A DNA stretch of 64,000 nucleotides, from the NCBI GenBank assembly GCA_900120415.1, contig FQLW01000006.1:310001-374000 (forward strand), in the 5' to 3' direction. The first letter of the stretch is position 1; each line of letters starts with the position of its first letter. A program made the translations under genes and the position numbers. Positions 1 to 42,485 of the stretch are shown here, piece after piece. The notes below the pieces were generated by a model. The model saw only the letters and a list, made by a program, of their open reading frames with translations, searched no databases and was not told where the DNA came from. Origin of the DNA: Urmitella timonensis (GTDB lineage Bacteria; Actinomycetota; Actinomycetes; Actinomycetales; Actinomycetaceae).

Positions 1-1486
1 CTGTCACTTTCCATCCATACAGCCCCTGCTCGCAGCCATAAAGAACCCCCTCCATAACCGCATTTTGGAACGATTGATTTAAATATCCAAGTGAAACTCT
101 GCTTTCATACTGCACTCCGCTTCCAATAGGGAGCGGCTCTATGGACAACCCGACAGAAGCCCAGAAAGGATTTGGCGGGACTTCTATGTGGATGGTATAT
201 TCTGCTTTTCTAAGCGGTCTTTCCATATATATAATAGTAGGCTCTTTTATTTCTGCCTCCACATGATATTTTTCCTCAAGGATGGCACAAATGACTTCCA
301 TCTGCACATTCCCCAAAAAAGAAAGTATAATCTCATGCGTTGTAGTATCCACATAATATTTTAAAAGAGGGTCGCCATCTGAAATTTCTGTAAGTGCCCC
401 AAGCAATATTTCCCGCTGTTCAGATTTCTTTACTGCAATCGTTGTTTGGAGCATAGGGAGAGGATTTTCAATAAATTTTCTCTGCGGCAACAGTATTTCG
501 TTCCCCAAAATACTGTTTAGCTGCAAAACATCATTTGGTAAAATTACAATATCACCAGAGCAGGCTGTATCGGATGAATATAATTCACCGTTTGTCGGAA
601 CACACATCTCTGTGATTTTTATTTTCTCTTTTTCAGATATTCTAATAACATCCCTCAAATGCAATGTTCCGCTATATATACGCACATAAACAAAACGCCG
701 CCTTTTCTCTGAATATTCAATCTTAAAAACCTGCCCGCATAGTTCAGATTGACCTTCAGGCGTTGATGAATAAAATTTACTGGCAATTACTTCTATAAGC
801 TGCCGAATCCCCAGATTGTTTTTAGCGCTTCCGTGATAAACGGGAAATAACGTTCCGTTTTGGAATCTCCTGTTTTCTTCCTGTTCCAGTTCTGACATTT
901 TAAACGGTTTCCCTGACATATATTTCTCTAATAGTTCATCGTTTCCCATAATTACCGCATCCCACTGTTCCATATCGTCATTGTCCGTTACATTTATATG
1001 GGGATGCTGCCCAACCTTTTGCTTCACTATAATTTCCGAAGAAAGCTTTGCTTTCATTTCCCGATATACCATTGGCAAATCAATCCCCTCTTGGTCAATT
1101 TTATTGATGAAAAAAATTGTCGGAATCTTCATTATCTGTAGTGCATGAAACAGTATACGGGTCTGTGCCTGTATGCCATCCTTTGCAGAAACTAATAATA
1201 CTGCTCCGTCTAATACGGATAAAGAACGGTATACTTCCGCCAAAAAATCCATATGGCCTGGCGTATCTATAATGTTGACTTTTACATCCTCCCACTGAAA
1301 AGATGTCACTGCTGTCTGGATAGTGATTCCCCTTTGACGCTCCAAATTCATTGTATCTGTCCTTGTTGTGCCTTCATCTACGCTCCCTAGTTCTGCAATT
1401 GCACCACTGGTATACAATAAACTTTCCGTTAATGTTGTCTTTCCTGCGTCAACGTGAGCCAGAATGCCTAAGTTAATTATTTTCAT
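1..1486 (-). CDS. tet(O): Tetracycline resistance ribosomal protection protein Tet(O), 3' end outside window
   Basis: This is an elongation-factor-like GTPase that releases tetracycline from the ribosome. About 495 N-terminal residues are visible of roughly 639 usual for the family. The start [20 protein letters not shown] carries the P-loop (AHVDAGKT), followed by the switch region RGITIQ, the G3 motif DTPGH and the G4 motif NKID. The sequence as I recall it matches Tet(O) closely and is clearly distinct from Tet(W) and Tet(M). A mosaic 3' part cannot be excluded because the end lies outside the window. The ATG at 1486 is preceded by a strong AGGAGG (1495-1500). Base composition is AT-rich, unlike the actinobacterial genes to the right, so the gene is acquired. 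Expression is probably controlled by the leader upstream. Confidence 0.93.
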
Positions 1487-1522
1487 GTGATTTTCCTCCT
1501 ATCAACACCCAAAAAAGGGCAT

Positions 1523-1558
1523 AAAAATACCCAGTGATAAATACTCCTATCACTGGGT
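1523..1558 (-). terminator. Attenuator hairpin in the tet(O) leader
   Basis: On the minus strand an 11-bp perfect stem (ACCCAGTGATA, 1548-1558, with TATCACTGGGT, 1529-1539) is followed by a T-rich run (1523-1528), forming an intrinsic terminator about 40 nt before the tet(O) start codon. It resembles the attenuator in front of tet(M) in Tn916. A competing inverted repeat lies upstream: CAGTTTATTTAAGAATACCT at 1707-1726 against AGTATTCTTAAACTG at 1621-1635. Confidence 0.8.
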
Positions 1559-1710
1559 AAATAACTCCAATAGCCCCAAAACACTTATATGTTTTCGGGC
1601 ATATAAAATTACATGATAAAAGTATTCTTAAACTGGGTACAAAAAACTAAGCCCCATATTAAAAGTGAAACGGGACTGCTACTTTTTGTTCCCACTATCA
1701 AATTGACAGT

Positions 1711-1734
1711 TTATTTAAGAATACCTTGCCGCAT
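1711..1734 (-). CDS. Leader peptide of tet(O) (MRQGILK)
   Basis: A seven-codon ORF begins at the ATG at 1734 and ends with TAA at 1711. It has its own ribosome binding site (AAGGAG, 9 nt upstream). It overlaps the 1707-1726 arm of the leader inverted repeat, so ribosome position on this peptide could influence which leader hairpin forms. By analogy with tet(M), stalled or slow ribosomes in tetracycline would favour read-through. This role is inferred, not shown. Confidence 0.55.
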   Translation of the reverse strand: MRQGILK

Positions 1735-1766
1735 ATTTATTAACTCCTTGTATAATACTGAATCTA

Positions 1767-1795
1767 ATTATATTCCTTAACCCTTTATTTGTCAA
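1767..1795 (-). promoter_or_regulatory. Promoter of tet(O)
   Basis: A consensus sigma-70-type promoter lies on the minus strand: -35 TTGACA (1790-1795), 17-bp spacer, -10 TATAAT (1767-1772). It lies between tnpV and the tet(O) leader, and the same arrangement is known for tet(M)-type genes. Confidence 0.85.
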
Positions 1796-1852
1796 GCTGA
1801 CAAACTAAAGCAGAAAAAGCGGCAGGATTTCCCCCTGCCACTAATCATCTGT

Positions 1853-2227
1853 TTATGCAAAAATAATTTCCTTTTCCACAATCTCCCTCGCACAAGCCCT
1901 TATGTTATTGAGGCATCCTGTCCATTCTAAGGCGTTTTCTGCCTTTAGCTGTTCCGTTATGCCCTGTGCCTGTTTCATACCCTCTATGAGCCTTTCAAAG
2001 CGTTCCTGTGCCTGTCTGTTGATGTCGGCAAGGTAGGCGTTTAGCCTGCCGCTTGTAAGAAGATTGGTGTATGTAACTTTACGGTACTGTTTTAGATAAT
2101 CTAAATGCCGTTGCCCCCAGATGCCTATTGCCTGTTCTTCTTCGGCGGGTACAGTTAAGCACGGTATCAAATAATCCCCTTGCCTTTCGTATTTGCCGCC
2201 CAGTTCCTCAAATAATGATTTTGCCAT
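1853..2227 (-). CDS. tnpV: TnpV family transposon-encoded protein
   Basis: A 124-residue protein whose N-terminus (MAKSLFEELGGKY) and central block (GIWGQRHLDYLKQYRKVTYT, then NLLTSGRLNAYLADINRQA) match the TnpV family of small accessory proteins carried by Clostridiales mobilizable and conjugative elements. Its molecular function is not established. The start has a good Shine-Dalgarno sequence (GGAGGT, about 8 nt upstream). It is on the same strand as tet(O), about 60 bp before the tet(O) promoter, so the two probably travelled together. No recombinase gene is visible beside it, so the element is either truncated here or extends past the left edge. Confidence 0.85.
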   Translation of the reverse strand: MAKSLFEELGGKYERQGDYLIPCLTVPAEEEQAIGIWGQRHLDYLKQYRKVTYTNLLTSGRLNAYLADINRQAQERFERLIEGMKQAQGITEQLKAENALEWTGCLNNIRACAREIVEKEIIFA

Positions 2228-2282
2228 TGTCTGTTACCTCCACATTCTTTTTTATTTTGAATGTCCGCAAAATCCGTCCTAC

Positions 2283-3245
2283 ATCACTAGCCGGTACGGG
2301 AGCGGTGGAAGCCTATCGTGGGCGAGCTTACTAGTCGCTTTTTCTGGGGTTATAACGCTAGTCGCTATCGGTTTTTTCACTGGACTGGCAATAAAAAGAA
2401 TCTTTATAGCACCGCTGATATCGGTCGCTACTTTTGCCCTAATGGCAATAATTTCCGAACCGATACTGCGTCCTTTGGCTCTGCTATTTCCGGTTCACCA
2501 GGTAGCAGGCTCGGCTCGTTTTGAAACCAATCCGGCAGTAGCTATGTTCTCGCTGATATTTGCCTGCACGCTGCTTTTAGCAGGCTACAGCGTATTAAGT
2601 TTCCCGCTTGCAGGCAAAAACCCAGGTTTGTCAGCGAACCAGAGAAATCTTCTACTCCCCCAAATAGTTCCCGCAGTATGCGTCCTTGCGTTGATCGGAT
2701 GCGCATTTGTATGGCGACCAGAATTGCTAACCGTTCACCGCCCGGTGAAAACCAGTTGCTTTAAGATTCAAGAGCTCCAGGTCTGTCTACATGAACAAAA
2801 CCTGCCAGCACGTGACTCGATACAAAAAAGTATCACCAGGTTGCAAAAGGTGGGAATCAGTTCTCTACTAACCACCATTAGTGACGATGCCGCTGTTGAA
2901 CGGGATTTACCAAGAAACAGCGAGGCTTTCATCATTGTTGATTCCGGTCCTTACGATAGTGAAAACGTTGCAAATAGCCTGGAAGAAAGCATTACTTGGC
3001 AAGTGGTGAGCGCGGCTACCACCGACCGCTGTATCGACAAGACTAAAACTATCGAAAGTCACGACCTCAATTCGGCAATAGCCCATGAGCTGCTTCAGCG
3101 CGCCAAATACCCCAATCTAGCCGAACATATTTCTCCGGAGGTAAACTCCACATTTGCGCACATGAGCGAGAGGGAACTTAACTCATTCCTGCACACCCAA
3201 AATAGGCTCGTCACCTCCTGCTCCCTGGAAAACAAAACGCTATGA
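2283..3245 (+). pseudogene. 5'-truncated multispanning membrane protein, possibly an ABC-2-like permease
   Basis: The reading frame is open from 2193, but its first codons run antisense to tnpV and AT-rich flank. Actinobacterial-like coding begins near 2283-2300, so the native start has been lost at the junction with the tet(O) element. About 320 residues remain: three or four hydrophobic segments, then a soluble region with the string CFKIQELQVCLHE. That string recalls a Cys-x-Glu motif I associate with actinobacterial permeases next to ABC ATPases; this is weak support. The stop overlaps the next start (ATGA), so the two genes were one operon. No functional start with a ribosome site is evident. 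Confidence 0.6.
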
Positions 3246-3868
3246 ACACCGTTAATGGATTCCTACACGCCCGCAACGCCTACGTGGGCGCGTTGTTCCT
3301 GATGGCGTTATCCATACTTTCCCTATCTTTCCCCATGACCTATGTCGGGGTTAGCGTGAAAGCCGGGTTTCCTGCCCGCGCAGTAGGTATCGCAGAGATA
3401 TGTGCACTTATTGCTGCCAGTTTTCTCCCTACAATTACCAAGCCGCATTTCAATAAAGCTGAGCTTAAAGCTCCCCCGTCACGCCGCGCAATCCACAGCA
3501 TTTTTACCGCTTTAGTGATTATTAGCCCTTGTCTACCCGCTATCACCTGGTATTTACGGATTAAATGGAGCGAACTGGGCTATCAGCTTCCCGGCATAAT
3601 CGGTTTTCTCGGCACCCCTATCATTTTGGGATCCCTGTCTATGCTCGCCCTCCTTTTAGCCGGTAGAGCAGTATCTATAGTTACACCTACGTTAGTTTTC
3701 TTTACTATCGTAGTGACGCAGCACCTGTTTCCCCTAGGTATTACCGCGCAAGTATTCGCCACCGCTAAAAATTGGCATAGCAGCTGGTTACTGGTATCGG
3801 CATTATTTATAACCGCCCTATTAGTCTCCTATCCCCTAGCCTCAATTCCTTATCGACAGCAGCGGTGA
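3242..3868 (+). CDS. Membrane protein of unknown function
   Basis: A 208-residue protein dominated by hydrophobic segments, about six predicted membrane spans (for example residues 15-35, 45-65, 85-105 and 185-205). I do not recognise the family. It starts at an ATG overlapping the stop of the truncated upstream gene by 4 bp, so it was translationally coupled to it. With the partner truncated and its promoter displaced, it may now be silent or driven from the acquired element. A permease half or an immunity-type membrane protein is possible but unsupported. Confidence 0.6.
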   Translation: MNTVNGFLHARNAYVGALFLMALSILSLSFPMTYVGVSVKAGFPARAVGIAEICALIAASFLPTITKPHFNKAELKAPPSRRAIHSIFTALVIISPCLPAITWYLRIKWSELGYQLPGIIGFLGTPIILGSLSMLALLLAGRAVSIVTPTLVFFTIVVTQHLFPLGITAQVFATAKNWHSSWLLVSALFITALLVSYPLASIPYRQQR

Positions 3869-3923
3869 TTAGCCCTGACTACCCCTGATTAGCCACTTTT
3901 CCAAAGGGGAAAGGTTCTAAAAT

Positions 3924-3945
3924 AAAAAGCTCAGATAAGCTTTTT
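3924..3945 (+). terminator. Possible weak terminator before glgX
   Basis: Inverted repeat AAAAAGCT (3924-3931) with AGCTTTTT (3938-3945) and a 6-nt loop, ending in a T run. The stem is AT-rich, so the call is tentative. It lies between the membrane-protein pair and glgX. Confidence 0.35.
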
Positions 3946-3992
3946 ACCTGTATAAATAGGTGGACAGACAGTCAAGATATAGGATTCACCTT

Positions 3993-6236
3993 GTGCATTT
4001 AGTGAACGACTCTTTTCAGCCGTCCAGTCCCTCGGTAAACGCTGGTGCAACCCAACCTAGCCGCCTAGGGGTATATCTAGAGGGAGACGGGGTTGATATT
4101 GCTGTCACCGCCCCTAATGCCCAGGCGGTAGAAGTCTGTTTTTTCACTTCCGGAGAACCTACAGCCCAAGAAACGCGCTACCGATTGCTCGGACCAACAG
4201 ATGGTATTTGGCACGGCCACGTTGCCGGGATAACGGCTGGAACTTGCTACGGCTTTCGCGCCTGGGGACCGTGGAATCCGGAACAGGGACATCTTTTTAA
4301 CCCCTATAAGCTCGCCCTCGACCCCTATGCCCGCGCGATTAGTGGAAACGTTGAGCTTTGCAGCCAAACCTACGCCCATAAAACAGATGCGGCGCTCTAC
4401 CCGCTGTATCCTTTCCAATTAGACCCCACCAACTCGGCGCCCTTTACGGCACGCGCAGTGGTAGTAGATAAACAGTTTGAGGTAGTTCCCGGTCCTAAAA
4501 CCTCCTGGGAAAATACCGTAATATACGAAGCTCATGTCAAGGGGCTCACCAAACAGTTACCGGGAATACCCCAGGAACTACAGGGGACCTACGCCGGATT
4601 GGCACACCCGGTAACTATTTCCTATCTAAAAGATCTGGGAATCACCGCGGTTGAACTATTGCCGGTGCACGCTAAACTCTCGGAAGCATTCTTAAACGAG
4701 CGGGGATTAAGTAACTATTGGGGATATTCCACCCTGTCCTATTTCGCTCCGGAACCCTCCTACGCCACCAGTAAGGCTCGCTGTCTAGGACCTACCGCAG
4801 TCCTTGATGAGTTCCGGGGCATGGTTTCGATTCTGCATGAAAATGGGATAGAAGTGCTGCTAGATATGGTCTATAACCACACCTGTGAAGGCAATTCAGA
4901 TGGACAGGCACTTTCATGGCGCGCCCTAGATAACGCTATGTATTACCGCCTGAATTCCCAAGGTGGAAACATTGATTACACCGGTTGCGGAAATACTTTG
5001 GATACTTCCCATCCGCGAGTAGTCCAAATGATTCTTGATTCTTTACGTTACTGGGTTTCCGAGGTAGGGATTGATGGTTTCCGCTTTGACCTGGCGGTTA
5101 CTTGCGCGCGTGGCGAGGAACATTTCACCCGTTTCCATCCTTTCTTCCAAGCCTGCTTAGATGACCCGGTTTTGCGGGACGTTAAAATGATTGCCGAGCC
5201 TTGGGACGTCGGACCAGACGGTTGGAAGACCGGAGATTTTCCGTTACCGTTTTCTACCTGGAATGACCGTTACCGGGACACCGTCCGCGGTTTTTGGGTA
5301 TCCGATGGGCGGGCGCAGTCTCGGGGCGAATCTCGCGGGGCTCCCCCTTTTGAACTGGCATCTCGCCTTTCTGGTTCCCAAGATATTTACGGGGCTGGGC
5401 ATATTCCCGCAGTCCGTTCCCCGCGTTGCTCGGTTAATTTCCTGACTGCTCACGATGGCTTCACTTTGGGGGATTTGGTTAGCTACGACCATAAACATAA
5501 TGAAAATAATTTAGAGAATAACCGAGACGGTTCAGATAACAACCTGTCTTGGAATCATGGTAGTGAAGGACGAGTGTTTATTCCTGGTCATGAAGCCGAG
5601 AAAATATTACAAACCGATTCTCCTTTAGCAGAGTTAGCTGCCGCCAGGATTCGTTCAACGCTAAATATGTTTACCACCCTGTTTATCTCTTCTGGCACCC
5701 CGATGATGCTGGCAGGTGACGAGTTTGCCCGCACGCAAGGTGGCAACAATAACGCATATTGTCAAGACAATGAGACTACCTGGTTGAATTGGGAACTGGC
5801 GGAGTGGCAAAAAGAGCTCTATAGAGCTGTACGAAAATTAATTACTTTGCGACGTGAACACCCGGTTTTCCGCCCTTCAAAGTTTTTGACTGGCAAACCT
5901 CACCCTGGGGACACCATTTCGGATTTGTCATGGTACAACCAGGTGGGACTATTGATGGGCGACCGGGCATGGCATGACCCTGCCAGCCGGGTTTTCCAAA
6001 TGTTACGTTCCGGACGCCCCTATGGCGATCAGGATTTGCTGGCAGTTTTCAATGGGATGCTTTCCCCGAAACACGTGCGCTTAGCTCCGGGTCGCGGAAC
6101 TGCCTACCACGAGGTATGGGATTCTGCGATTACAGAAGCTGACGAGGACGTGCCTTCGCTTAACCTGGCCGGTGACGATATCCTGCTTGAGCCTTTATCT
6201 ATCAAACTTTTCCTAGCCGATTCCCGCGAGGATTAG
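3993..6236 (+). CDS. glgX: Glycogen debranching enzyme GlgX (isoamylase type, GH13)
   Basis: Cleaves alpha-1,6 branches of glycogen or limit dextrin in the cytoplasm. The protein has an N-terminal CBM48-like domain (APNAQAVEVCFF) followed by a GH13 barrel. Visible motifs are DMVYNHT, GFRFDLA (nucleophile Asp near 366), IAEPWDVG (acid/base Glu near 402) and LTAHDGFT (transition-state Asp). The length of about 747 residues fits GlgX. The frame is open from a GTG at 3960, but that codon has no usable ribosome site. The GTG at 3993 has AGGA 8 nt upstream and is preferred; the GTG at 4002 is another option. The gene appears monocistronic, and its 3' end faces the GH110 gene across a terminator. 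Confidence 0.93.
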   Translation: MHLVNDSFQPSSPSVNAGATQPSRLGVYLEGDGVDIAVTAPNAQAVEVCFFTSGEPTAQETRYRLLGPTDGIWHGHVAGITAGTCYGFRAWGPWNPEQGHLFNPYKLALDPYARAISGNVELCSQTYAHKTDAALYPLYPFQLDPTNSAPFTARAVVVDKQFEVVPGPKTSWENTVIYEAHVKGLTKQLPGIPQELQGTYAGLAHPVTISYLKDLGITAVELLPVHAKLSEAFLNERGLSNYWGYSTLSYFAPEPSYATSKARCLGPTAVLDEFRGMVSILHENGIEVLLDMVYNHTCEGNSDGQALSWRALDNAMYYRLNSQGGNIDYTGCGNTLDTSHPRVVQMILDSLRYWVSEVGIDGFRFDLAVTCARGEEHFTRFHPFFQACLDDPVLRDVKMIAEPWDVGPDGWKTGDFPLPFSTWNDRYRDTVRGFWVSDGRAQSRGESRGAPPFELASRLSGSQDIYGAGHIPAVRSPRCSVNFLTAHDGFTLGDLVSYDHKHNENNLENNRDGSDNNLSWNHGSEGRVFIPGHEAEKILQTDSPLAELAAARIRSTLNMFTTLFISSGTPMMLAGDEFARTQGGNNNAYCQDNETTWLNWELAEWQKELYRAVRKLITLRREHPVFRPSKFLTGKPHPGDTISDLSWYNQVGLLMGDRAWHDPASRVFQMLRSGRPYGDQDLLAVFNGMLSPKHVRLAPGRGTAYHEVWDSAITEADEDVPSLNLAGDDILLEPLSIKLFLADSRED

Positions 6237-6250
6237 TCTCTTTTCCCGGC

Positions 6251-6298
6251 TAGCTTCGCCCCAGCAATAACCGGGGCGGAGCTACGCCATGGTTTTTT
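6251..6298 (+). terminator. Intrinsic terminator after glgX
   Basis: TAGCTTCGCCCC (6251-6262) pairs with GGGGCGGAGCTA (6273-6284) with one mismatch, followed 8 nt later by six T. It separates the convergent glgX and GH110 genes. Confidence 0.7.
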
Positions 6299-6321
6299 CT
6301 AGCAGAAAAACTAAATCAAAA

Positions 6322-9300
6322 TCATTTACTCAGCTGAGAGCTTTTACGCTTTCGGATTATTGCGCCCCCACTAACTAGAATGAGTGATGTAAGTGCAAGT
6401 AAAAACACATCTTGCGAACCGCTTTTTGTAAGCCCAGCTACTGAAGGTTTTGAGTTCTTACCACTTTGGGTTTGCCTCGTGGTTCCCTTTTGGGAAGCTA
6501 CGCCCTTGGGGGTAGCTTTGCCCCCGTTAGAAGTATCGGGGGTAGCCCCACCTGTTGTTGGCGGGTTGGTAGTGGGGGTATCGCTCGGAGGAGTGTCTAT
6601 AGGAGGAGTGTCCGGGGAGGAAATAGGGGCGAAGGTTGCATTAAATACGACGTCTCTGTCTGCGACCGTATAGGAAAACTCGGGTTCGGAAGATACTGTC
6701 TTGTCTGCGAGACGCCAACCGGTGAAGCGATACCTTTCGGCGGGAGTGGCTTTCAAAGTAACAGTGTCACCTTTATACAGTTTTGCGCCCTTGATAGTGT
6801 TCGGTTCTATCGCCACTGTCCCCATGTTTGCCTGATCGTTTGGAACCCTAACTTGTACGCTGCGTGAGGCTTCGTTGGTGGCCGGAGTGCTATTCGCGTG
6901 AGTATCCGTGTTTAACATTGTCCAGCGGTAAACCGAATGAGTTATCCCATCTTCTGCGATAACGTCAGCTTTTAAGATATTTGTGCCGGGAGCTAATTGA
7001 ACAGATTTAATTGTTCCATCTGCACCTGGTTTTAGTTCTTTATTATTCAATTGGAGCCGCATAGTTGCTTTCGGACTTGTTTTGAAAGCAGCGTTAATCA
7101 CGGAATGAGCGGCATCAGTAGTAGCGGCGTAGTTAAAAACATTGGGAATCGTAGTTATCTCGCCATCTAATAGCCCCGACACTGAACCGGTAATCCGTGC
7201 TTGAGTGTTTTTTGCGGTTGGAATCTTTCCGCTGGGCGTTATGTCCTGGACAGTTTTCTTCATTCCTACTTTTATCTTTTTACCGTTTAGGGTGATATCC
7301 GTATAGGAAACCGGGGTCTTATTCCCATCGGGCTCAGAACTACTAGCGGAAGCAAAAGCTAGTTTTATATCTTTACCTAGGAAACTAGCATCTGCTTGCC
7401 CGATTTTGTTCCAACTATTTCCGTTATCAACACTGAAATAGGTGGTAACAGTATTCCCCTGTTTTGAAAACTTCATGAGGACGGATTCGGCGTTTTCACC
7501 GGCTCGTACAGTCTCATTTCCGCCGCACCAAGTTTCCTGCGCTTTTGCGGAGCTTTCTCTAACCTGGGCAATCTTTCGGATATTACCATTGCGGTGTTTT
7601 CTTTGAATAGCAAGGTAATTGTTTTGATCCTTATACAGGTAAACTCCGGTATCGGACCACGAAGAACTGGTTAGCCCCTGTTGCCTGACAGTAATTTCAA
7701 AATCACTGGAGCTTTCAGGGTCTATCACCTGACCAACTAAAATGTTTTTTCCTTGTTGTTCTTGGTAAAGACCTCCAGATGAATAGGTCGAGGTGAAGCC
7801 AAATTCCTTAGGTTTTATTTGGTGAGCCGAATCTTCTGTTTCTATACTCCACTTATCAGTAAAGCTGTAGATTTCCTGTGGCACACCGGCTGTGGTCGAA
7901 ACTTGCAGCGTTAAGGGATTAGAGGTGCGTTTAACCGCCTTATCTCCAGTTCCTACAACTTCTGTCATGGTGAGCGTGGCGCTGCCTTCACTTAGCGCAT
8001 AAACTATGCCCTCAGAATCTACTTTTATTACATTCGGATTCGAGGAAACAAAGTAGCGAGTAACGGTCGGCGAGGTCGGGGGGTTAGTTACTACTGCCCC
8101 ATTAGTCTTGGCTAAATCATTACTGATGTTGATATTAGCGGAATCCATCTGGGAAACATCTATGGAAGTATCTATACCTTGCCCATATTTGTTATTGGCA
8201 ATAGTAACGGTTTTGTTTCCTTGCAGACGATATAAAGCGGTATTTGTCATTGGGCCGGCGGAAGTAAGCAGTCGCATACTGCCTCCCACCGACACTATCT
8301 TCTGTTCTGATGTTAAAGTCAAGAGTCCGGGGTCTTGCAGCCAGATTGTGTTATCCGTAAAACTGAGATCTTTTGTGCTTTTAGCATCTAGAACTCGCTG
8401 CGCATCTCGCCCATTGCCCGCCGGATTTTGCGCGCCTGCTCTCAGAATATAGAACTTGTTTCCGGTAATAGTCACATTTGAATGAACAGTATTTGTTTCA
8501 CTGACAGTCGGGTTAGTCGGTTGTATAAATATCGCCTGGGAACTGCCATTCAAAAAAGTATTATTCTTAATCGTTAGGTTTCTGACTGGACCGGATTCGT
8601 ACCAGCCTTGAGCATCGTTAGAAATATATATTCCTGCCATTCCGATTCCGCCAAAGGTGTTATTCTCTATAACCACTTTTTTACGGGTGGTTACCAAAAT
8701 CCCTCTCGTGGGGGTGGCGGTGAAAACATTGTTCGATATTTCCACTTCGGGAGTGTAGGTAATGTTTTCTACTACATGGGTGCCGTTCACCCCAATTTGG
8801 GCAGGAATGTCTTTATCAAAGGTCAAAATAATATCGGTGAGATTTCCAGAGCCTTCACCCTGGATTCCTCCCCTACCGTCTGGACCATCCACTGCGGTCA
8901 CGGTTCGCACAGAATCTGGAACAGTAACCATATTCCCCTTAGTAGAGAACTCAACTTGATCCCCGATGAAGTAATTGGGGAAACCGGCTGTTTCATGATG
9001 TTTGAAACGTACCCTGATTTTATTTGCGACTATTTTTTCGACTACTTCATTAAATGTGCCATGAACATTAATGGGATCGTCATGAGGGTTAGAAAAATAC
9101 GAATTAGTTATCCGTATTGTACCTTTCGTTCCTGACATTTGGATAAAGTCAGCAAATCCAGAGGTAGAACGCCCGGTTTCCGCAGGAGCCTCAAACCGAA
9201 CATTATCAATAGTTATATTTTCACTATGTTGCCCCACAATCCCAAAGCCGTGTAAGAAACCTATCTGAGTCTTTTCAATAGCGACATCTTTAGATTTCCA

Positions 9301-10236
9301 AATAAACATTCCGGGATGGTCTCGGTCTAACAGCCGCATCTGAAAATACATTCCCTTTTTCAACAACTTGTTAAGCGGGCTAGAATAGGTAACTTTTAGA
9401 TGACTGGCATTATCGGTTTTTATTTCTTTAATAGAGGTTACATTAGCAAAGATTGTGCTATTCGGGTTGCCAGCTCTCCAAGTTTGCTGTTTGGAAGCAT
9501 CATATGCCTGCATATAGCTAAATTCTGATTGCTTTGTGATCCAGTATCGTTGGTTACTATAAGGACTGCTATCGGAATACCACGTTATATCATTACCATT
9601 CAAAGAATAGTTGTATTGTTTTGGAACTAGAAAAGTAGCTGTCTTGGTGTCACTATCAACTTTTTCTACCGCAATATCTATAACGGTTGGGGTCGCAAAA
9701 TCGGTAGCTACATTTTGTATTTTTATTTTTTTGGAATTAATGGCTGCGAATTCAGTCATTTTTCCGTGATACATAAAAAGCGAACCGCTACCATCTATAG
9801 TCACGCCATTTAAATCCTCAATTAGGATTCCAATTCGTTTCTTTTTGAATCTTTCACTTGCACCCACCGTGTTGGAAACATACAGGGTGCACTCTGGGGC
9901 TTTATCGGGGTAAAAATCGTATCTTCCCGTAGGAAAACGTAAAACTATTGATTTATCCGGGTGCGCTTTTCGCAGCTCTTTCAGCTTTTCTATCGCTTTT
10001 TCTACCGCAGGGGCAGAATCTGTTTTACCACTGGGGTCAGCACCGAAAGCAGTAGCATTTACCGTTATTGATTCCTTTTCCTTAGCTAGCGCAGTGGTAG
10101 GAGCGGTCAAGGCAAGAGCCGTAATAACTAGACTCAAGATGCCGATAACCGAAATAATTTTATTTAAAGTCTTTGGTTTTTCGGGGGGACACAGGTGACT
10201 AGCAGGGTTTAACCTAGCGAAAACGGTATGCAACAT
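6322..10236 (-). CDS. Surface GH110 alpha-1,3-galactosidase with accessory domains
   Basis: A 1304-residue secreted protein. Residues about 26-47 form a hydrophobic signal segment. Residues about 55-650 are a beta-helix with the GH110-like string DDPINVHGTF near 386-395; GH110 enzymes remove terminal alpha-galactose, including from blood-group B-type glycans. C-terminal parts in order: BIG2-like Ig domain (about 725-790), concanavalin-like sandwich (about 800-970), cadherin-like sandwich (about 1000-1110), InlB-type repeat (about 1140-1195) and a Pro/Thr linker. The end looks like a cell-wall sorting signal: LTKSG, a hydrophobic stretch, then RKRK. LTKSG is not canonical LPxTG. Base composition is more AT-rich than its neighbours, suggesting transfer. 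The exact substrate is inferred. Confidence 0.83.
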   Translation of the reverse strand: MLHTVFARLNPASHLCPPEKPKTLNKIISVIGILSLVITALALTAPTTALAKEKESITVNATAFGADPSGKTDSAPAVEKAIEKLKELRKAHPDKSIVLRFPTGRYDFYPDKAPECTLYVSNTVGASERFKKKRIGILIEDLNGVTIDGSGSLFMYHGKMTEFAAINSKKIKIQNVATDFATPTVIDIAVEKVDSDTKTATFLVPKQYNYSLNGNDITWYSDSSPYSNQRYWITKQSEFSYMQAYDASKQQTWRAGNPNSTIFANVTSIKEIKTDNASHLKVTYSSPLNKLLKKGMYFQMRLLDRDHPGMFIWKSKDVAIEKTQIGFLHGFGIVGQHSENITIDNVRFEAPAETGRSTSGFADFIQMSGTKGTIRITNSYFSNPHDDPINVHGTFNEVVEKIVANKIRVRFKHHETAGFPNYFIGDQVEFSTKGNMVTVPDSVRTVTAVDGPDGRGGIQGEGSGNLTDIILTFDKDIPAQIGVNGTHVVENITYTPEVEISNNVFTATPTRGILVTTRKKVVIENNTFGGIGMAGIYISNDAQGWYESGPVRNLTIKNNTFLNGSSQAIFIQPTNPTVSETNTVHSNVTITGNKFYILRAGAQNPAGNGRDAQRVLDAKSTKDLSFTDNTIWLQDPGLLTLTSEQKIVSVGGSMRLLTSAGPMTNTALYRLQGNKTVTIANNKYGQGIDTSIDVSQMDSANINISNDLAKTNGAVVTNPPTSPTVTRYFVSSNPNVIKVDSEGIVYALSEGSATLTMTEVVGTGDKAVKRTSNPLTLQVSTTAGVPQEIYSFTDKWSIETEDSAHQIKPKEFGFTSTYSSGGLYQEQQGKNILVGQVIDPESSSDFEITVRQQGLTSSSWSDTGVYLYKDQNNYLAIQRKHRNGNIRKIAQVRESSAKAQETWCGGNETVRAGENAESVLMKFSKQGNTVTTYFSVDNGNSWNKIGQADASFLGKDIKLAFASASSSEPDGNKTPVSYTDITLNGKKIKVGMKKTVQDITPSGKIPTAKNTQARITGSVSGLLDGEITTIPNVFNYAATTDAAHSVINAAFKTSPKATMRLQLNNKELKPGADGTIKSVQLAPGTNILKADVIAEDGITHSVYRWTMLNTDTHANSTPATNEASRSVQVRVPNDQANMGTVAIEPNTIKGAKLYKGDTVTLKATPAERYRFTGWRLADKTVSSEPEFSYTVADRDVVFNATFAPISSPDTPPIDTPPSDTPTTNPPTTGGATPDTSNGGKATPKGVASQKGTTRQTQSGKNSKPSVAGLTKSGSQDVFLLALTSLILVSGGAIIRKRKSSQLSK

Positions 10237-10534
10237 CGGATATCTTTCTGTGGCATCATTGCCTACTGGCTTATATAGCGAAAAGCTTGCTGTATATTTG
10301 CCTCGTCCTCCCTAGCAAGCAGGAGCAGATTTCATGGTGGCGGTGATTTCCGCTAGCGCTTCCCTGGCTACCTGGCTAAGCATCTTACATATCCCCCCGC
10401 CCCCACCTAACCCCGAGCTGAAGTTCACCACCAGCAACATGAACCTACTCAACTAGCATTTTTGTCTAACAAATTTTTCTTGGCAGATTCCCGAGAGGAT
10501 TAACGCGCAGCTGTAGCTTAAGAAATCTAAATCG
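10237..10534. other. Intergenic region upstream of the GH110 gene
   Basis: Presumed promoter region of the GH110 gene. A 7-bp inverted repeat, GCTTGCT (10285-10291) and AGCAAGC (10314-10320), flanks a 22-nt loop. No complete gene is seen. The right part contains the glgX remnant listed separately, and from 10535 to 10977 the gap is filled by repeat elements. Confidence 0.5.
10456..10503 (+). pseudogene. Remnant of a second glgX 3' end
   Basis: In frame up to the TAA at 10501-10503 the DNA encodes AFLSNKFFLADSRED. The genuine GlgX ends EPLSIKLFLADSRED. Of the aligned codons several differ only synonymously (CTA/TTG, GCC/GCA, CGC/CGA, TAG/TAA), so this looks like a diverged coding sequence rather than a recent copy. 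Similarity is lost further 5', and a stop in the same frame at 10408-10410 confirms that no gene is left. Confidence 0.6.
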
Positions 10535-10640
10535 CGGGGGAGAGATTTTTCCTCCCGCCCAAGAAATTTGGAAAACGTAGCGGCGTTTTCCAAATTCTTA
10601 TGCCCATCGCACCCACTCGGATAAAACCTAGACTCCGCGC
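10535..10640 (-). repeat. Nested palindromic repeat, copy A
   Basis: The inner stem is AAATTTGGAAAACG against CGTTTTCCAAATT, centred near 10580. Flanking blocks include CCCGCCCAAGAA on the left and TTATGCCCATCGCACCCACT on the right. An imperfect outer stem (GGAGAGATTTTT region, AAAACCTAGACTCC region) encloses it. It lies in reverse orientation to copies B, C and D. The element sits upstream of trpS. Confidence 0.7.
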
Positions 10641-10812
10641 GACACCCCTACACAGCCGGTTAGAGAAACCCGGAGTGCTTTTACCGAGCCAGCCCCGACA
10701 CAGGAGACAACCAATCCCCCGCACCCACAACTTCCAGGCATATAACCAGGCAACCACGCCCACCGGAGCAACATTTCCACCCTCCTGATTCCAGGCATAC
10801 GCGCCGTTTTCA

Positions 10813-10907
10813 CCCTCCCGAGACAAAACCACCCTCCCAATACCGGCAAAACGCCCCAATAACGACCACAATTCCCACCTCGGGAGGGCGCAACTGCACC
10901 GGGAGGG
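10813..10907. repeat. Opposed G-tract repeat element, copy 1
   Basis: Two CCCTCCC blocks (10813-10819 and 10832-10838) face two GGGAGGG blocks (10882-10888 and 10901-10907). Start-to-start spacing is 19 bp on both sides. The outer parts are also complementary (GTTTTCACCCTCCCG against CGGGAGGG plus AAAAC), so the unit can fold as a long hairpin, or as a potential G-quadruplex on each strand. A close copy is at 25905-25999. Confidence 0.65.
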
Positions 10908-10965
10908 TCAAAACGTCACCAAAGAGGCGCAGAGCCTAGGTTTTTCTGGAATATCTCCTCCCACG

Positions 10966-10971
10966 TAGACT
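10966..10971 (+). promoter_or_regulatory. Putative -10 element of leaderless trpS
   Basis: TAGACT ends 6 nt before the trpS ATG and there is no Shine-Dalgarno sequence, which places the expected transcription start at or next to the A of the ATG. No good -35 is visible. Confidence 0.45.
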
Positions 10972-10977
10972 GGGGCT

Positions 10978-12081
10978 ATGAGTGATAGTGGCGAAAAACT
11001 AGAAAATTCTACCGACGCAGCCTCTCTGCAACGAGCGGAGCGGGTATCTCAAGAGATTGAGGCAGCAATAGATAAAGACCCCAGCAAGTTCCGGGTACTC
11101 ACCGGCGATCGCCCGACCGGTGCCCTACATTTAGGGCATTATTTCGGAACAATTAAAAACCGGGTGACGATTCAGCAGCGTGGGGTGGAAACCTGGATTC
11201 TAATTGCCGACTATCAGGTAATCACTGATAGGGAGGGAACCGGTCCGATTCGCGAGCGCGTCCTGAATATGCTCGCTGACTATATTGCTTGTGGACTTGA
11301 CCACGAAAAGACCACTATTTTTACCCATTCAGCAGTGCCAGCTCAAAACCAGTTAATGCTGCCTTTCCTGTCTTTAGTGACCGAGGCGGAGCTGCACCGT
11401 AACCCTACAGTGAAATCGGAACTATTGGCTTCCGAGCGCCCCATGTCGGCACTGCTGCTCACTTATCCGGTGCATCAGGCAGCCGATATTTTGTTCTGTA
11501 AAGCAAATCTGGTTCCAGTAGGTAAAGACCAACTCCCCCACTTGGAGCAGGCACGACTAATTTCGGATCGTTTTGAGCGGGTATTTAGACGTAAATCTTC
11601 CCTGAAACATCGGGTGTTCCCTCGCCCTGAGGGGCTTCTTTCCGGAGATGGCGCCCTGATTTTAGGCTTGGATGGCGAAAAAATGTCGAAGTCGCGTGGT
11701 AACGCGGTCGAGCTGGGAATGACCAGTGACGAGACCGCGAAACTAATCAAACGCGCTAAGACTGATGCGCAGCGTCATATTACTTACGACCCGGATAATC
11801 GCCCTGAAGTGTCTAATCTTTTGCGCCTTGCCGGTCTTGCCAGTGGGCAAGATCCTCGCGTTATTGCTGAAGAAATCGGGGATCAGGGGGCTGGGAAACT
11901 GAAACAGGTACTCACGGAGTCTTTAGATGCCGCTTTATCTCCGATTAGGTCGCGACGGGCAGAGTTGCTAGCTGACCCCGGTTATTTATGGGATGTTTTA
12001 CATCGAGGTAATCAGCGCGCTAACGAGGTCGCAAACGAGACTTTAGGAGAGGTACGTCAAGCAATGAACATGGTTTACTAG
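10978..12081 (+). CDS. trpS: Tryptophanyl-tRNA synthetase
   Basis: Charges tRNA-Trp with tryptophan. This is a class I synthetase of 367 residues. The HIGH-type signature appears as HLGH at about residues 51-54 (context DRPTGALHLGHYFGT) and the KMSKS loop at about 234-238 (GEKMSKSRGN). The N-terminal 30 residues are an extra charged extension relative to short TrpRS forms. The ATG at 10978 has no ribosome binding site but a -10-like hexamer at the right distance for leaderless expression. The YdcF-like gene follows after 4 bp, so the two probably form an operon. Confidence 0.95.
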   Translation: MSDSGEKLENSTDAASLQRAERVSQEIEAAIDKDPSKFRVLTGDRPTGALHLGHYFGTIKNRVTIQQRGVETWILIADYQVITDREGTGPIRERVLNMLADYIACGLDHEKTTIFTHSAVPAQNQLMLPFLSLVTEAELHRNPTVKSELLASERPMSALLLTYPVHQAADILFCKANLVPVGKDQLPHLEQARLISDRFERVFRRKSSLKHRVFPRPEGLLSGDGALILGLDGEKMSKSRGNAVELGMTSDETAKLIKRAKTDAQRHITYDPDNRPEVSNLLRLAGLASGQDPRVIAEEIGDQGAGKLKQVLTESLDAALSPIRSRRAELLADPGYLWDVLHRGNQRANEVANETLGEVRQAMNMVY

Positions 12082-12085
12082 CCCT

Positions 12086-12751
12086 ATGAAACCACTGCGA
12101 ACACTGATAAAACTCCTAATCACCCTAGTGGTGATGGTCGTTATTTGCGTGACCGGAACTAATTTATATGTTTTGCATCGAACTAAGGGGCAGATTGTTT
12201 CCCTTTCCGAGGCAAAAGATAAGGGTGCGCAGGTGATTGTGGTTTTGGGGGCAGCTACCTATCCGGATGGGTCGCCTTCTCCGATTCTGGCTCATCGGTT
12301 GCAAACCGCTTTGAATCTGTATCAGGAGGGGGCTGCGAAAAAGATTCTGATTAGTGGTGACCATGGACAAGTACACTATGACGAGATTAAATCCATGCGG
12401 AACTGGCTGCGACAACACCAGGTAAAAGCTGAGGATATTTACGCCGATCATGCCGGTTTTTCGACCTATGAGTCTGCTTATCGGGCGGATGCTATTTTTT
12501 CGGTGCGCACTGCGATAGTGGTTACTCAGCCCTATCATCTGCCCCGCGCCCTCTACGATTTCCAAAGCCGCGGTATCGAGGCTTGGGGAGTTGGGGCTGC
12601 CGGGAATAGTTACCCAGGTCAGACCGGGAGGACTATTCGCGAGTGGGTGGCACGAACCAAAGATGTTGTTTGGGTAACTACCAAACAGAAACCGACTTAT
12701 CTCGGTCCTAAAATTTCTTTGGAGGAATCAGCTTCCGCTACTAACGATTAA
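12086..12751 (+). CDS. YdcF/SanA-like membrane protein (DUF218)
   Basis: A 221-residue protein with one N-terminal membrane anchor (about residues 7-27) and an extracytoplasmic DUF218 domain. Family marks are VIVVLGAATYPDGSPSPILA, ILISGDHG and VTQPYHLPRAL. E. coli relatives SanA and ElyC affect envelope integrity, but the biochemical activity is unclear. It starts 4 bp after the trpS stop without a clear ribosome site, pointing to translational coupling. Confidence 0.82.
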   Translation: MKPLRTLIKLLITLVVMVVICVTGTNLYVLHRTKGQIVSLSEAKDKGAQVIVVLGAATYPDGSPSPILAHRLQTALNLYQEGAAKKILISGDHGQVHYDEIKSMRNWLRQHQVKAEDIYADHAGFSTYESAYRADAIFSVRTAIVVTQPYHLPRALYDFQSRGIEAWGVGAAGNSYPGQTGRTIREWVARTKDVVWVTTKQKPTYLGPKISLEESASATND

Positions 12752-12895
12752 AAATGACCGATTTTAGCGATTTTTCTACCTGGTTTCGTGCGGGAATGGC
12801 TGATTTTCCCCTTATTTACCAGGATTGAAAAGGCGCGCGAGACAGTTGCACTTGTTAGGCTGGAATAAGCAGAGTCCATCAAATAAGGAGACAGC

Positions 12896-15208
12896 ATGGC
12901 AAGCGACACCTCCAGTTCGCCCACAAAGACTACAGCTACAAAAGCTAAGTCCAGCAAAGCTGCCAGCGCGAAAACAGTTAATCCTAAGTCCACCGGGGTA
13001 AAGCGAAGCGTGCGTCAAGCCAAGACCGCTAAAGCCACAAGCGCAAAGAAAACCACCACGACCTCTACGGTTAAGAAAACAACTGGGGCAAAGAAGACTG
13101 CTAGTAGCTCTACCGCCACCCCCCGCAAGCGCGTTAGTAGAGCGAAATCTTCGCCCTCGTCCTTAGAACCGCAAAACTTAATCCCTGCCGTGGCCCGCCT
13201 AGCTAGGATTCCGGTTACCGAAGTGGAACCGGTTATCGAAGATGGGCTGTGGGCTGCTAAAGCGGTAGAGGGCGAGTCTTTTCCGGTACGTGCCACCGTC
13301 TTTCGGGAAGGTCATGATGCTTTAGGGGCGGAAGCCGTATTGCTTAACCCCGAGGGGACGGAAACAATGCGGGTACGAATGTATGATGTTGCCCCCGGTT
13401 TGGATCGCTTAGAGGCATGGCTAAAACCAACTACCCCCGGCGACTGGAGTTTCCGCATAGACACCTGGTCAGATCCCTATCAAACCTGGAGTAAAGAAGC
13501 CTCAATCAAAATTCAGGCAGGTATTGATGTTGAATTAGAGTTCGAGCAGGGGGCGTTGCTTCTTGAACGGGCTGCCCGTGGGCAGGCACTTAACAATTCC
13601 GCCCAACTGCCTCCTGATAGTGAGCGCGTTACCCGGCTGCATGAGGCCGCTAAAGCAATGCGAGATAAAACCCGTCCGATTCAAGAGCGTTTATCGGTTG
13701 GGCTTCATTCTTCAATCCGCGGTATTTTCCGCACTCACCCTTTGCGTGACCTGCTAGAATCTTCGCGCACCTACCCTTTGCGGGTTGATCGCGAACGCGC
13801 CCTATACGGTTCTTGGTACGAGATTTTTCCGCGTTCTATTGGCGCTTACCAAGATCAAGAGGGACAGTGGCATTCGGGTACCTTGCGTACCGCTACCTCA
13901 GATTTGCCCCGGATTGCTTCCCTGGGGTTTGACGTGGTGTATCTAACTCCTGTGCATCCGATTGGTACTACTTTCCGCAAAGGACGCAATAACGCGTTAG
14001 AGGCTGCCCCCGGTGACCCTGGCTCTCCGTATGGTATCGGTAGCCCTCAGGGAGGTCATGACGCTATTCATCCTGAGCTTGGCACTTTTGATGATTTTGA
14101 TTATTTTGTGAAGAAAGCTAAAGGACTTGGGTTAGAGGTGGCTCTCGATTTAGCGCTGCAGTGTTCCCCCGACCATCCTTGGGTAAAAGAACACCCCCAG
14201 TGGTTCAAGCATCGTCCCGATGGCACGATTGCCTATGCCGAGAACCCCCCAAAGAAGTATCAAGATATTTATCCCCTAAGTTTCGACACTGATTATCGCG
14301 GACTGTATAACGCTGTCCGCGATGTAATCGAAAAATGGATTGAACATGGGGTAACGATTTTCCGGGTTGATAATCCGCATACGAAACCGGTGCAGTTCTG
14401 GCAAGAGATATTAGCGGAGTTCCGCGAAAAACATCCCGAAGTGTTGTTCCTTGCGGAAGCATTTACCCGTCCCGCCATGATGCGCACCTTAGCTCAGGTT
14501 GGTTTCCATCAGTCCTACACCTATTTTGCGTGGCGCAATAATCGCGAGGAGATTGAAAAATACTTACAAGAGGTGTCTTGGGAGTCGTGCTCGTATATGC
14601 GGCCTTCTTTCTGGCCAACCACCCACGATATTCTCACGCAAGTTATGGTTGAGGGCGGAAAACCGGCTTTCAAAATGCGGGCAGTTTTAGCTGCTACTGG
14701 CTCCCCCAATTGGGGGATTTACTCCGGGTATGAACTGATAGAAAATGTGCAGCGACCAGGTTTTGAAGAGCAGATTAATAACGAAAAATACCAGTTCAAA
14801 CCGCGTGATTATTCCGGTCAAACCGCTCAAGAAATACAATCCCTCTTAACCTGCCTAAATGGTATCCGCAGGCGGCATCCAGCTTTACAAAGGCTGCGTA
14901 ATCTGAGTATTCATCCCACCACTCACCCCAGTGTGGTTTGCTTTTCTCGTCATTTAGATGCTTGGGAGTCGCCGACTGGAAGCGCCGATACTGTGATTGT
15001 GCTGGTTAATCTGGATCCGAAAAATACTGCTATTGGTTCTGTCTACCTGGATTTAGCGGATTTGAAGATTAGCGGTTACTCGTCCTCATCATGTTTCAAA
15101 GTTCGTGACGAACTGGACGGACAGGTCTATCAGTGGGGAGCCAGCAACTATTTTGAGCTTAATCCCTATGAGCGGGTAGCCCACGTGTTCGCGGTGGAAT
15201 CCGACTAA
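12896..15208 (+). CDS. glgE: Alpha-1,4-glucan:maltose-1-phosphate maltosyltransferase GlgE
   Basis: Transfers maltose from maltose-1-phosphate to alpha-glucan chains in the cytoplasm. Residues about 95-200 form the N-terminal sandwich domain; the GH13_3 barrel carries FRVDNPHTKP (nucleophile Asp near 491), LFLAEAFTRP (Glu near 520) and TTHDIL (Asp near 577). Unusual: residues 1-85 are a low-complexity Lys/Ala/Thr/Ser extension resembling histone H1 tails, absent from typical GlgE of about 660-700 residues. The ATG has a good AAGGAG, so the extension is probably translated. First gene of the glgE-treS-mak operon. Confidence 0.95.
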   Translation: MASDTSSSPTKTTATKAKSSKAASAKTVNPKSTGVKRSVRQAKTAKATSAKKTTTTSTVKKTTGAKKTASSSTATPRKRVSRAKSSPSSLEPQNLIPAVARLARIPVTEVEPVIEDGLWAAKAVEGESFPVRATVFREGHDALGAEAVLLNPEGTETMRVRMYDVAPGLDRLEAWLKPTTPGDWSFRIDTWSDPYQTWSKEASIKIQAGIDVELEFEQGALLLERAARGQALNNSAQLPPDSERVTRLHEAAKAMRDKTRPIQERLSVGLHSSIRGIFRTHPLRDLLESSRTYPLRVDRERALYGSWYEIFPRSIGAYQDQEGQWHSGTLRTATSDLPRIASLGFDVVYLTPVHPIGTTFRKGRNNALEAAPGDPGSPYGIGSPQGGHDAIHPELGTFDDFDYFVKKAKGLGLEVALDLALQCSPDHPWVKEHPQWFKHRPDGTIAYAENPPKKYQDIYPLSFDTDYRGLYNAVRDVIEKWIEHGVTIFRVDNPHTKPVQFWQEILAEFREKHPEVLFLAEAFTRPAMMRTLAQVGFHQSYTYFAWRNNREEIEKYLQEVSWESCSYMRPSFWPTTHDILTQVMVEGGKPAFKMRAVLAATGSPNWGIYSGYELIENVQRPGFEEQINNEKYQFKPRDYSGQTAQEIQSLLTCLNGIRRRHPALQRLRNLSIHPTTHPSVVCFSRHLDAWESPTGSADTVIVLVNLDPKNTAIGSVYLDLADLKISGYSSSSCFKVRDELDGQVYQWGASNYFELNPYERVAHVFAVESD

Positions 15209-41325: not shown

Positions 41326-42369
41326 ATGGATATAACCGTTTCCCGGAAGATTAACCTATATAGATGGCTATTTACCTTGGGAATAGTAATTTATCATTCA
41401 AAATCTTTGGCGGCATTCACCAGTCCGGAAACTAAAATCGGTATCATAGCAAAAACCTATGTAATCTTAGCAAATCAGCTAGGTTTTACCTCAATGAATT
41501 TTTTCTTTTTTACTTCCGGTTTTTTACTCTATTTCAATGCCAGCCCCCCCTCAATAGGGCGGAAAATGAAATCCCGAGTTAAATCACTGCTGCTGCCATT
41601 TTTATTATGGCAAGTTACAGTTCTTATTTTAATGACGCTGACCCGTCCCTCAGAAGCAAGACTCCATCTCAACCCGATAGATTCATTTTTCTGTTCACCA
41701 GTTGCGGGACCACTTTGGTATTGCCTTGCCCTTTTAATCCTGATGTTGCCCGCTCCCCTAATAGTGCGGATTAAGCACAAATCAGTGCTAACCGTACTGA
41801 CAATCGCTATCTTCACCTATTTAATTGCTCGCCATTTAGGCTACTTCCCAGAACCTTTATCATTTAAACGGTGGTGGTGGTATGGCAATATGATTAGCTA
41901 TCTTCCGAGCTATATTTTAGGGGCATACATCGGAATAGTTCGACCAAATCTAATTGTTAAACCAAAAACTAACAATAACTTCTGGGTACTATTTGGTATT
42001 TTCCTTACTGTAATCGTAACAGTGCTGTGGCACTATTCCCCCGGAATGCTCTCAGATGTAAATTTTGGATTGCTGCAATTAATTGGGATGTGGCTACTAT
42101 TAAAATCCACTTGGCTTACGAAAGATATGCCCAAATTTTTTGATTGCGCTTTTTACGTATTTGCCCTGCACAATCCGATATTAATTCCAGAATTTGAGCT
42201 GCTGATACTTCCGCTATTCAGCATCTTCGTTCCCTTTAACGATTTAGAAATTCTTACCCTAAAACTATTGGAGATTGTTTCTATAGTATTGGCAAGCTGG
42301 GCTCTAAAGCTACTATTTGACCGGATATTTCCAGCTAAATTCTCAAAGATGTTTACTGGTGGCAGATAA
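41326..42369 (+). CDS. Acyltransferase 3 family membrane protein
   Basis: A 347-residue protein with about ten hydrophobic spans. The opening RKINLYRWLFTLGIVIYHSK has the basic-aromatic start and membrane His typical of acyltransferase family 3 (OafA-like), which acylate surface sugars. The substrate is unknown. AAGGGAG lies before the ATG. The gene is clearly more AT-rich than galK and the genes to its right and ends 30 bp before a tRNA-Ser gene, so recent acquisition is possible. Confidence 0.75.
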   Translation: MDITVSRKINLYRWLFTLGIVIYHSKSLAAFTSPETKIGIIAKTYVILANQLGFTSMNFFFFTSGFLLYFNASPPSIGRKMKSRVKSLLLPFLLWQVTVLILMTLTRPSEARLHLNPIDSFFCSPVAGPLWYCLALLILMLPAPLIVRIKHKSVLTVLTIAIFTYLIARHLGYFPEPLSFKRWWWYGNMISYLPSYILGAYIGIVRPNLIVKPKTNNNFWVLFGIFLTVIVTVLWHYSPGMLSDVNFGLLQLIGMWLLLKSTWLTKDMPKFFDCAFYVFALHNPILIPEFELLILPLFSIFVPFNDLEILTLKLLEIVSIVLASWALKLLFDRIFPAKFSKMFTGGR

Positions 42370-42398
42370 CCGGAACAATATAGATATCTGCCAATCTG

Positions 42399-42485
42399 CG
42401 GAGAGTAAGGGATTCGAACCCTTGATACCCTTGCGGGTATAACGGTTTTCAAGACCGTCTCCTTCGGCCACTCGGACAACTCTCC
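42399..42485 (-). tRNA. tRNA-Ser (anticodon UGA)
   Basis: Minus strand, 87 nt. The acceptor stem is GGAGAGT with ACTCTCC plus discriminator G. The D-arm is GTCCGAGTGGCC, the anticodon loop CTTGAAA (anticodon TGA) with stem ACGGT/ACCGT, a long variable arm TACCCGCAAGGGTA typical of tRNA-Ser, and the T-loop GGTTCGAATCC. CCA is not encoded. Confidence 0.95.

Follow-up and report, generated by a model that had tools for sequence, protein, structure and literature searches.

Two members of glycoside hydrolase family 110 (GH110) provide the closest points of comparison for the enzyme described here: AgaBb of Bifidobacterium bifidum and PdGH110B of Pseudoalteromonas distincta (PDB entries 7jw4 and 7jwf). 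AgaBb has been in print since 2013 (PMC7232152, PMC8603203) and is placed in the GH110 tree of PMC7939477; it is a large multidomain protein of 1,289 amino acids (PMC11858185). The family is divided into enzymes that act on the blood group B antigen only, on B and linear substrates, and on linear substrates only, and PdGH110B acts on linear α-1,3-galactose and not on the B antigen (PMC7939477). Here, we describe a GH110 α-1,3-galactosidase gene in Urmitella timonensis (family Actinomycetaceae), located between glgX and trpS in a 64,000-nucleotide stretch of contig FQLW01000006.1 (positions 310,001 to 374,000; referred to as the window). Our reading, to which we assign a probability of roughly 0.78, is that the gene came into the glgX-trpS interval by insertion and encodes a secreted, cell-surface, exo-acting, inverting enzyme of the AgaBb type that uncaps mucin glycans. 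Most likely, it clips the blood group B sugar from host mucus, as AgaBb does.

The open reading frame (ORF) is a genuine GH110 α-1,3-galactosidase gene, in agreement with the original prediction, which had been made from the sequence letters and translations. A phmmer search of the PDB (E ≤ 1) with the window protein matched nine distinct sequences, all nine of them GH110 or α-(1,3-)galactosidases by name. The top matches were AgaBb (8yk1, 8yk2, and 8yk3; E = 5e-225 to 4e-218), and the three AgaBb constructs were followed by PpaGal, an Akkermansia enzyme (8pvs), PdGH110B, and GH110A. We modeled amino acids 50 to 775 using an alignment of 21 related sequences (A3), with a mean predicted local distance difference test score (pLDDT) of 83.3. 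Foldseek ranked GH110-type galactosidases 1 to 15 against this model, with a GH28 enzyme in the next row (9e-08), and a second aligner (VIA) placed the model on 8yk2_A with a Z score of 51.8 (2.2 Å over 624 residues, 55% identity). Ten GH110-type rows had VIA Z scores of 38.6 to 51.8, and the best row outside GH110 had 30.0. The closest solved homologue is therefore AgaBb by both sequence and fold, and not another kind of β-helix enzyme. The GH110 fold, a parallel β-helix with two small β-barrels, is present in the model; barrel II also has a Pfam match, whereas barrel I has none of its own and is placed by the fold alignment. Above the curated Pfam cutoffs, the 1,304-amino-acid protein matched Beta_helix, the InlB B-repeat (Flg_new_2), GLAA-B beta-barrel II, NosD, and GH43_C2, and an NCBIfam scan of it gave no match at E ≤ 0.1.

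To locate the catalytic residues, we built an alignment of 14 chosen sequences with PdGH110B numbering; residue roles for this enzyme are given in PMC7939477. The three residues of the catalytic triad are all present (D363, D386, and D387), with Asp at each position in all 14 rows, and the DDPINVHG segment singled out in the original prediction lines up with the catalytic D344 and D345 of PdGH110B. Six of the seven noncatalytic −1 subsite residues named for PdGH110B (N85, R265, N348, R453, W486, and E488) are kept in 14 of 14 rows, the seventh, E480, varying among them. The window enzyme and AgaBb are 54 to 56% identical over the catalytic part and have identical catalytic residues. They also have in common a Ser at the position of PdGH110B E480 and a Pro at that of R451.

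We then compared the enzyme with its relatives. Across the named genomes scanned, there were 79 GH110 loci, of which 77 yielded a protein; the 75 proteins longer than 400 amino acids were combined with the window enzyme and AgaBb into a first tree of 77 rows, from which 24 chosen rows went into a more careful tree. Rows from Bacteroidota dominate the 75 (60 rows, with 7 from Bacillota and 2 from Actinomycetota), as expected from the description of GH110 in the original prediction as a mostly Bacteroidetes family. That contrast did not extend to the nearest neighbor, which is itself actinobacterial: the window enzyme paired with AgaBb with a support of 97 in the first tree and 98/96 in the careful one, and the Buchananella enzymes joined the pair with supports of 99 and 100/100, in trees that contain few close relatives, include AgaBb from the PDB as the only Bifidobacterium homologue, and leave out both a Nonomuraea GH110 (34.8% identity) and SaGal110A of Streptomyces avermitilis (PMC7939477). 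Thus, the window enzyme lies on a branch with the sampled actinobacterial enzymes and not with those of Bacteroidota.

Within the genus of the window species, the GH110 gene was found in one of six genomes. In the family Actinomycetaceae, 10 of 213 genomes had some match to the window protein; judged by the ranges matched, five of these carry GH110 (the source genome itself, three genomes of a single genus, and a broken copy in genome G180), and the other five match in the tail modules only. Two of the three same-genus genomes are Buchananella hordeovulneris (L017, identical to L005, and L018, identical to L007), and the third carries the same genus label (L006). A search at the order level returned the source genome as the sole match among 248 genomes, a sparse sample in which the Buchananella genomes are not listed. 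The two B. hordeovulneris proteins have the module order of the window protein (GH110, Big_2, concanavalin-like, and cadherin-like, some of them below cutoff) but are only 36 to 37% identical to it in the catalytic part, and their ends differ, with CWB2 repeats in L017 and a stop right after LPRTGR in L018. The broken GH110 of G180, which belongs to another genus of the family, is split into pieces (L014 and L016) in differing frames with internal stops, and among five queries, these pieces were nearest to AgaBb (53.6% over 220 amino acids) and to the window protein (47.0% over 151 amino acids). As the window enzyme resembles AgaBb more closely than it does the Buchananella enzymes, which also come from Actinomycetaceae, vertical descent alone is insufficient to account for it, and paralogy and loss are possible sources of this placement. 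Title and term searches of limited depth in the open-licence literature found no print record of a GH110 enzyme in Actinomycetaceae. Because AgaBb is already known, large GH110 enzymes of this type are not new to actinobacteria; the window protein is a new GH110 of the AgaBb type, from Actinomycetaceae.

The genomic context points to insertion. In all five congeners (L102 to L106), the glgX-trpS order is conserved, the DNA between the two genes is different, and GH110 is absent from each, making glgX-trpS a variable slot in the genus. The gap holds hsdS genes (type I specificity subunits) in four of the five (L102 to L105), with a ribbon-helix-helix/ParE pair as well in L103. The gaps of L104 and L106 encode unassigned proteins of 171 to 178 amino acids; that of L106 spans just 0.76 kb and contains a single ORF of this kind. 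On the far side of GH110, the window carries a short second copy of the end of glgX, in which 29 of the last 36 bases are identical to the present glgX end and five of the seven mismatches leave the amino acid unchanged. One 168-base match (82%) in L102 covers the last 29 bases of glgX and continues into the DNA downstream of it, corresponding to this scar plus the DNA that follows it, and one 70-base match (79%) in L103 likewise spans the glgX end and downstream DNA. Since both matches continue through the glgX end into downstream DNA, the scar is best read as the old glgX end in its native context, in front of which the present glgX end and GH110 have been placed. The glgX scar of the original prediction is real and marks an insertion. 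A short-motif scan of the five congener gaps showed no second glgX-end piece. As to the route, we infer that recombination within glgX with a related donor would fit best; the identity profile of glgX has no clear break marking a recombined 3′ part.

An alternative history, in which GH110 was already at glgX-trpS in the ancestor of the genus and the line leading to the five congeners lost it before they diverged, seems unlikely to us. The window glgX has a nucleotide identity of 0.767 to 0.776 to the five congeners, compared with a mean of 0.856 among them; this places the window species outside the other five, so that a single loss would suffice, and other members of the family carry GH110, as an intact gene in Buchananella and as a broken one in G180. 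However, an older glgX end followed by native downstream DNA beyond GH110 is what an insertion would leave, and the GC content of GH110 is below the window mean.

For the composition comparison, we used 38 of the 58 window ORFs (GH110 and 37 chosen others). The GC content of GH110 is 0.441, against a mean of 0.511 (standard deviation [SD], 0.034) in the 37 others (z = −2.07), and its third-codon-position GC gives a z of −1.90. The gene is thus AT-rich relative to the window, as the original prediction had proposed, but not extremely so, as two of the 37 ORFs are lower (0.418 and 0.392). The same prediction took composition and scar together as a sign of recent transfer. The insertion is supported; "recent" is not, as there is no date, no mobile gene at the insert, a mild compositional shift, and a diverged scar. 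No integrase or insertion sequence ORF was seen at the insert, and a repeat search of positions 5900 to 11000, which did not list the scar either, found no repeat flanking the insert. Rfam gave no family at gathering score in positions 1 to 12000 of the window, and there were fewer promoter- and terminator-like sites than in shuffled sequence on average. Nine stretches of viral contigs matched by pattern, and none proved to be a relative in a single-sequence query that finds close relatives only. Eight plasmid records (one of them an 11.9-Mb Nonomuraea record) and four phage records matched, all at <60% identity, and a plasmid or phage source is therefore not indicated. No tRNA lies near the insert; the one tRNA-Ser, at 42398 to 42485, adjoins an ORF with a GC content of 0.39 (41326 to 42485 together), a possible small island. 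Separately, the left end of the window (1 to 2227) is AT-rich (0.39 in 1 to 2000), carries a TnpV gene (1853 to 2227), and is probably a mobile element.

Other enzymes encoded in the genome bear on the role of the protein. In PMC10154618, GH110 is the enzyme that takes blood group B off mucins, and GH101 is an endo-enzyme acting on core 1. The genome encodes a set of enzymes suited to mucin O-glycans: a GH101 protein with NPCBM (L136, 11325 to 15449), a protein combining a BNR sialidase-type part with GH20 and NPCBM and another with β-galactosidase accessory domains (both in L134, 2380 to 10977), and a GH20 protein with F5/8 modules (L137, 4486 to 8664), all four on one strand and within about 22 kb. 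The protein with β-galactosidase accessory domains may be of the GH35 type; its ORF runs off the end of L134, and the domains seen are the accessory ones. Elsewhere in the genome are a second anchored BNR protein (L133) and another GH20 protein (L138), and we left a third BNR match (L135, 502 amino acids, without an anchor) out of the mucin-type count. GH101 occurs in two of the six genomes of the genus. The presence of GH101, the sialidase-type/GH20 fusion, and further GH20 proteins supports the suggestion of the original prediction that host mucosal glycans are grazed at the cell surface, which we consider probable from the gene content. Beside the GH20 protein of L138 lies a 1,139-amino-acid protein with a β-helix match and a sorting-like tail (11420 to 14839).

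The tail of the GH110 protein carries the Ig-like, lectin-like (here, concanavalin-like), cadherin-like, and InlB-type modules that had been predicted; they are real by Pfam, several with weak assignments (Table 1). The cadherin-like module has a faint counterpart in AgaBb (8yk1, residues 754 to 817), and compared with the PDB chains of AgaBb, the window protein differs in having a concanavalin-like module and an InlB repeat. With PF00746, the genome gave 22 matches at E ≤ 1, seven of them above cutoff and the LTKSG tail of the GH110 protein among the 22; the other tails have LPXTG-type motifs as well as LSNTG, LEKTG, LVNTG, LPLSG, and LSRSG. Given this tail, the similar variants, and three sortase matches in the genome, the enzyme is likely secreted and anchored at the cell surface. 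The predicted wall anchor has the usual order of parts and resembles other tails of the genome, but its score makes it plausible rather than certain.

In the mechanism that we propose, a terminal galactose without modification would sit in the −1 pocket of the parallel β-helix, D386 would give a proton to the glycosidic oxygen, and D363 and/or D387 would activate water, releasing β-galactose. The Ig-like, concanavalin-like, cadherin-like, and InlB-type modules would act as a spacer between enzyme and wall and might also bind glycans, with a sortase probably attaching it through the noncanonical LTKSG signal. Once the galactose is removed, the mucin glycans would be uncapped and open to the cell's other mucin-type enzymes. 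The gene itself would have entered the variable glgX-trpS slot, leaving behind a piece of the displaced glgX end. Of these elements, the computations show the family, catalytic residues, fold, relatives, slot, and scar; we infer from them the substrate, the anchoring, the role in vivo, and the way in which the gene was inserted.

Several observations weigh against parts of this reading. PdGH110B E480 is replaced by Ser539, and the +1 residue Arg451, described as conserved in PMC7939477, by Pro509; the Ser is found in AgaBb too, and the Pro also in AgaBb, both Buchananella rows, and both Paenibacillus rows. These two changes separate the AgaBb clade from PdGH110B, the enzyme behind the subsite model. 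The C-terminal half, including the concanavalin-like part, folded poorly (mean pLDDT, 44.9), and its LTKSG tail reached 12.6 bits with PF00746 against a cutoff of 20. NPCBM, the Pfam family that we take to correspond to the CBM51 of AgaBb, was not found in the window protein (Pfam at E ≤ 0.1 for the whole protein and E ≤ 0.01 for the tail). For the step after galactose removal, the genome search took in GH101, GH20, and BNR-type enzymes and not fucosidases. Finally, PdGH110B Lys207 and Arg208, at the closed +1/+1′ side, correspond to Ser240 and Tyr241 here and to Pro and Tyr in AgaBb; this substitution favors a site in which fucose would fit, but the fucose-pocket reading is soft because the +1′ columns belong to a gapped, poorly conserved stretch. 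The residue pattern is no more than suggestive of a preference for the B antigen over linear α-Gal.

The same enzyme could instead act mainly on linear Gal-α-1,3-Gal or another α-1,3-galactoside, with the B antigen a minor substrate or none. The existence of all three substrate classes within GH110 (PMC7939477) speaks for this, as does the missing counterpart of the CBM51 that is said to bind the B antigen in AgaBb (PMC11858185). Yet sequence, fold, and tree all point to AgaBb as the nearest enzyme, whose PDB entries name it as acting on blood group B, and neither Lys207 nor Arg208, both present in the linear-specific PdGH110B, is retained, which leaves a mainly linear substrate improbable. 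Less probable still is an enzyme that is not sortase attached, with a C-terminal tail that serves as a simple membrane anchor or is a sorting signal that fails: besides its low score, LTKSG differs from LPXTG at two positions, but the order of motif, hydrophobic stretch, and basic end is complete, Ser replaces Thr also in the LPLSG and LSRSG tails, the genome has its three sortase matches, and the class E sortase of B. bifidum presumably accepts [LIV][SAP]XTG (PMC8603203). Elsewhere in the window, a 1,701-amino-acid protein (18601 to 23706) with three SpaA prealbumin-like stretches is likely a pilus tip or adhesin.

Table 1. Features of the GH110 gene and the glgX-trpS slot, in window positions
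Feature	Position	Strand	Basis or remark
glgX, full length, left slot border	3960..6236	+	
GH110 α-1,3-galactosidase gene	6322..10236	-	ATG start, 1,304 aa (amino acids)
Sorting-signal-like C-terminal tail: LTKSG, hydrophobic stretch, RKRK	6322..6432	-	Sequence, PF00746 scan
InlB B-repeat-type module, aa 1149-1205	6622..6792	-	Pfam
Cadherin-like module, aa 1031-1104	6925..7146	-	Pfam 24.1 vs cutoff 24.2; 25.6 with the tail scanned alone
Concanavalin-like module GH43_C2/DUF1349, aa 840-983	7288..7719	-	GH43_C2 22.8 vs cutoff 22.7; DUF1349 18.1 vs 32.4 (below)
Ig-like Big_2 region, aa 729-768	7933..8052	-	Pfam 13.3 vs cutoff 22.8 (below); matched in Buchananella homologues too
GH110 catalytic β-helix part, aa 59-712	8101..10062	-	Pfam, PDB sequence search, structure model
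D386 (aligned with PdGH110B D344, likely acid) and D387 (aligned with D345, putative base), in HDDPIN	9076..9081	-	Alignment; PMC7939477
D363, counterpart of PdGH110B D321 (putative base), in FADF	9148..9150	-	14-row alignment; PMC7939477
Putative N-terminal secretion signal, about aa 1-51, hydrophobic stretch ending TALA	10084..10236	-	By eye
Scar: last 15 codons, including stop, of the older glgX 3′ end, FLSNKFFLADSRED*	10459..10503	+	Direct alignment
DNA beyond the scar, first part colinear with sequence downstream of glgX in L102 and L103	10504..10977	+	
trpS, right slot border	10978..12081	+	Order the same in 5 of 5 congeners

These results carry the range of AgaBb-type GH110 beyond Bifidobacterium into Actinomycetaceae, where the gene shares its genome with others for surface mucin-type enzymes, and they add a natural variant (about 55% identity) for studies of B-to-O conversion. 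They also identify glgX-trpS as a variable slot for comparing acquired genes among species. Going further, AgaBb-type GH110 might be a mobile accessory gene of host-mucus Actinomycetales that arrived here by glgX recombination into the glgX-trpS slot, with a concanavalin-like module in place of CBM51 that may be a new B antigen- or mucin-binding module, an idea that we offer tentatively.

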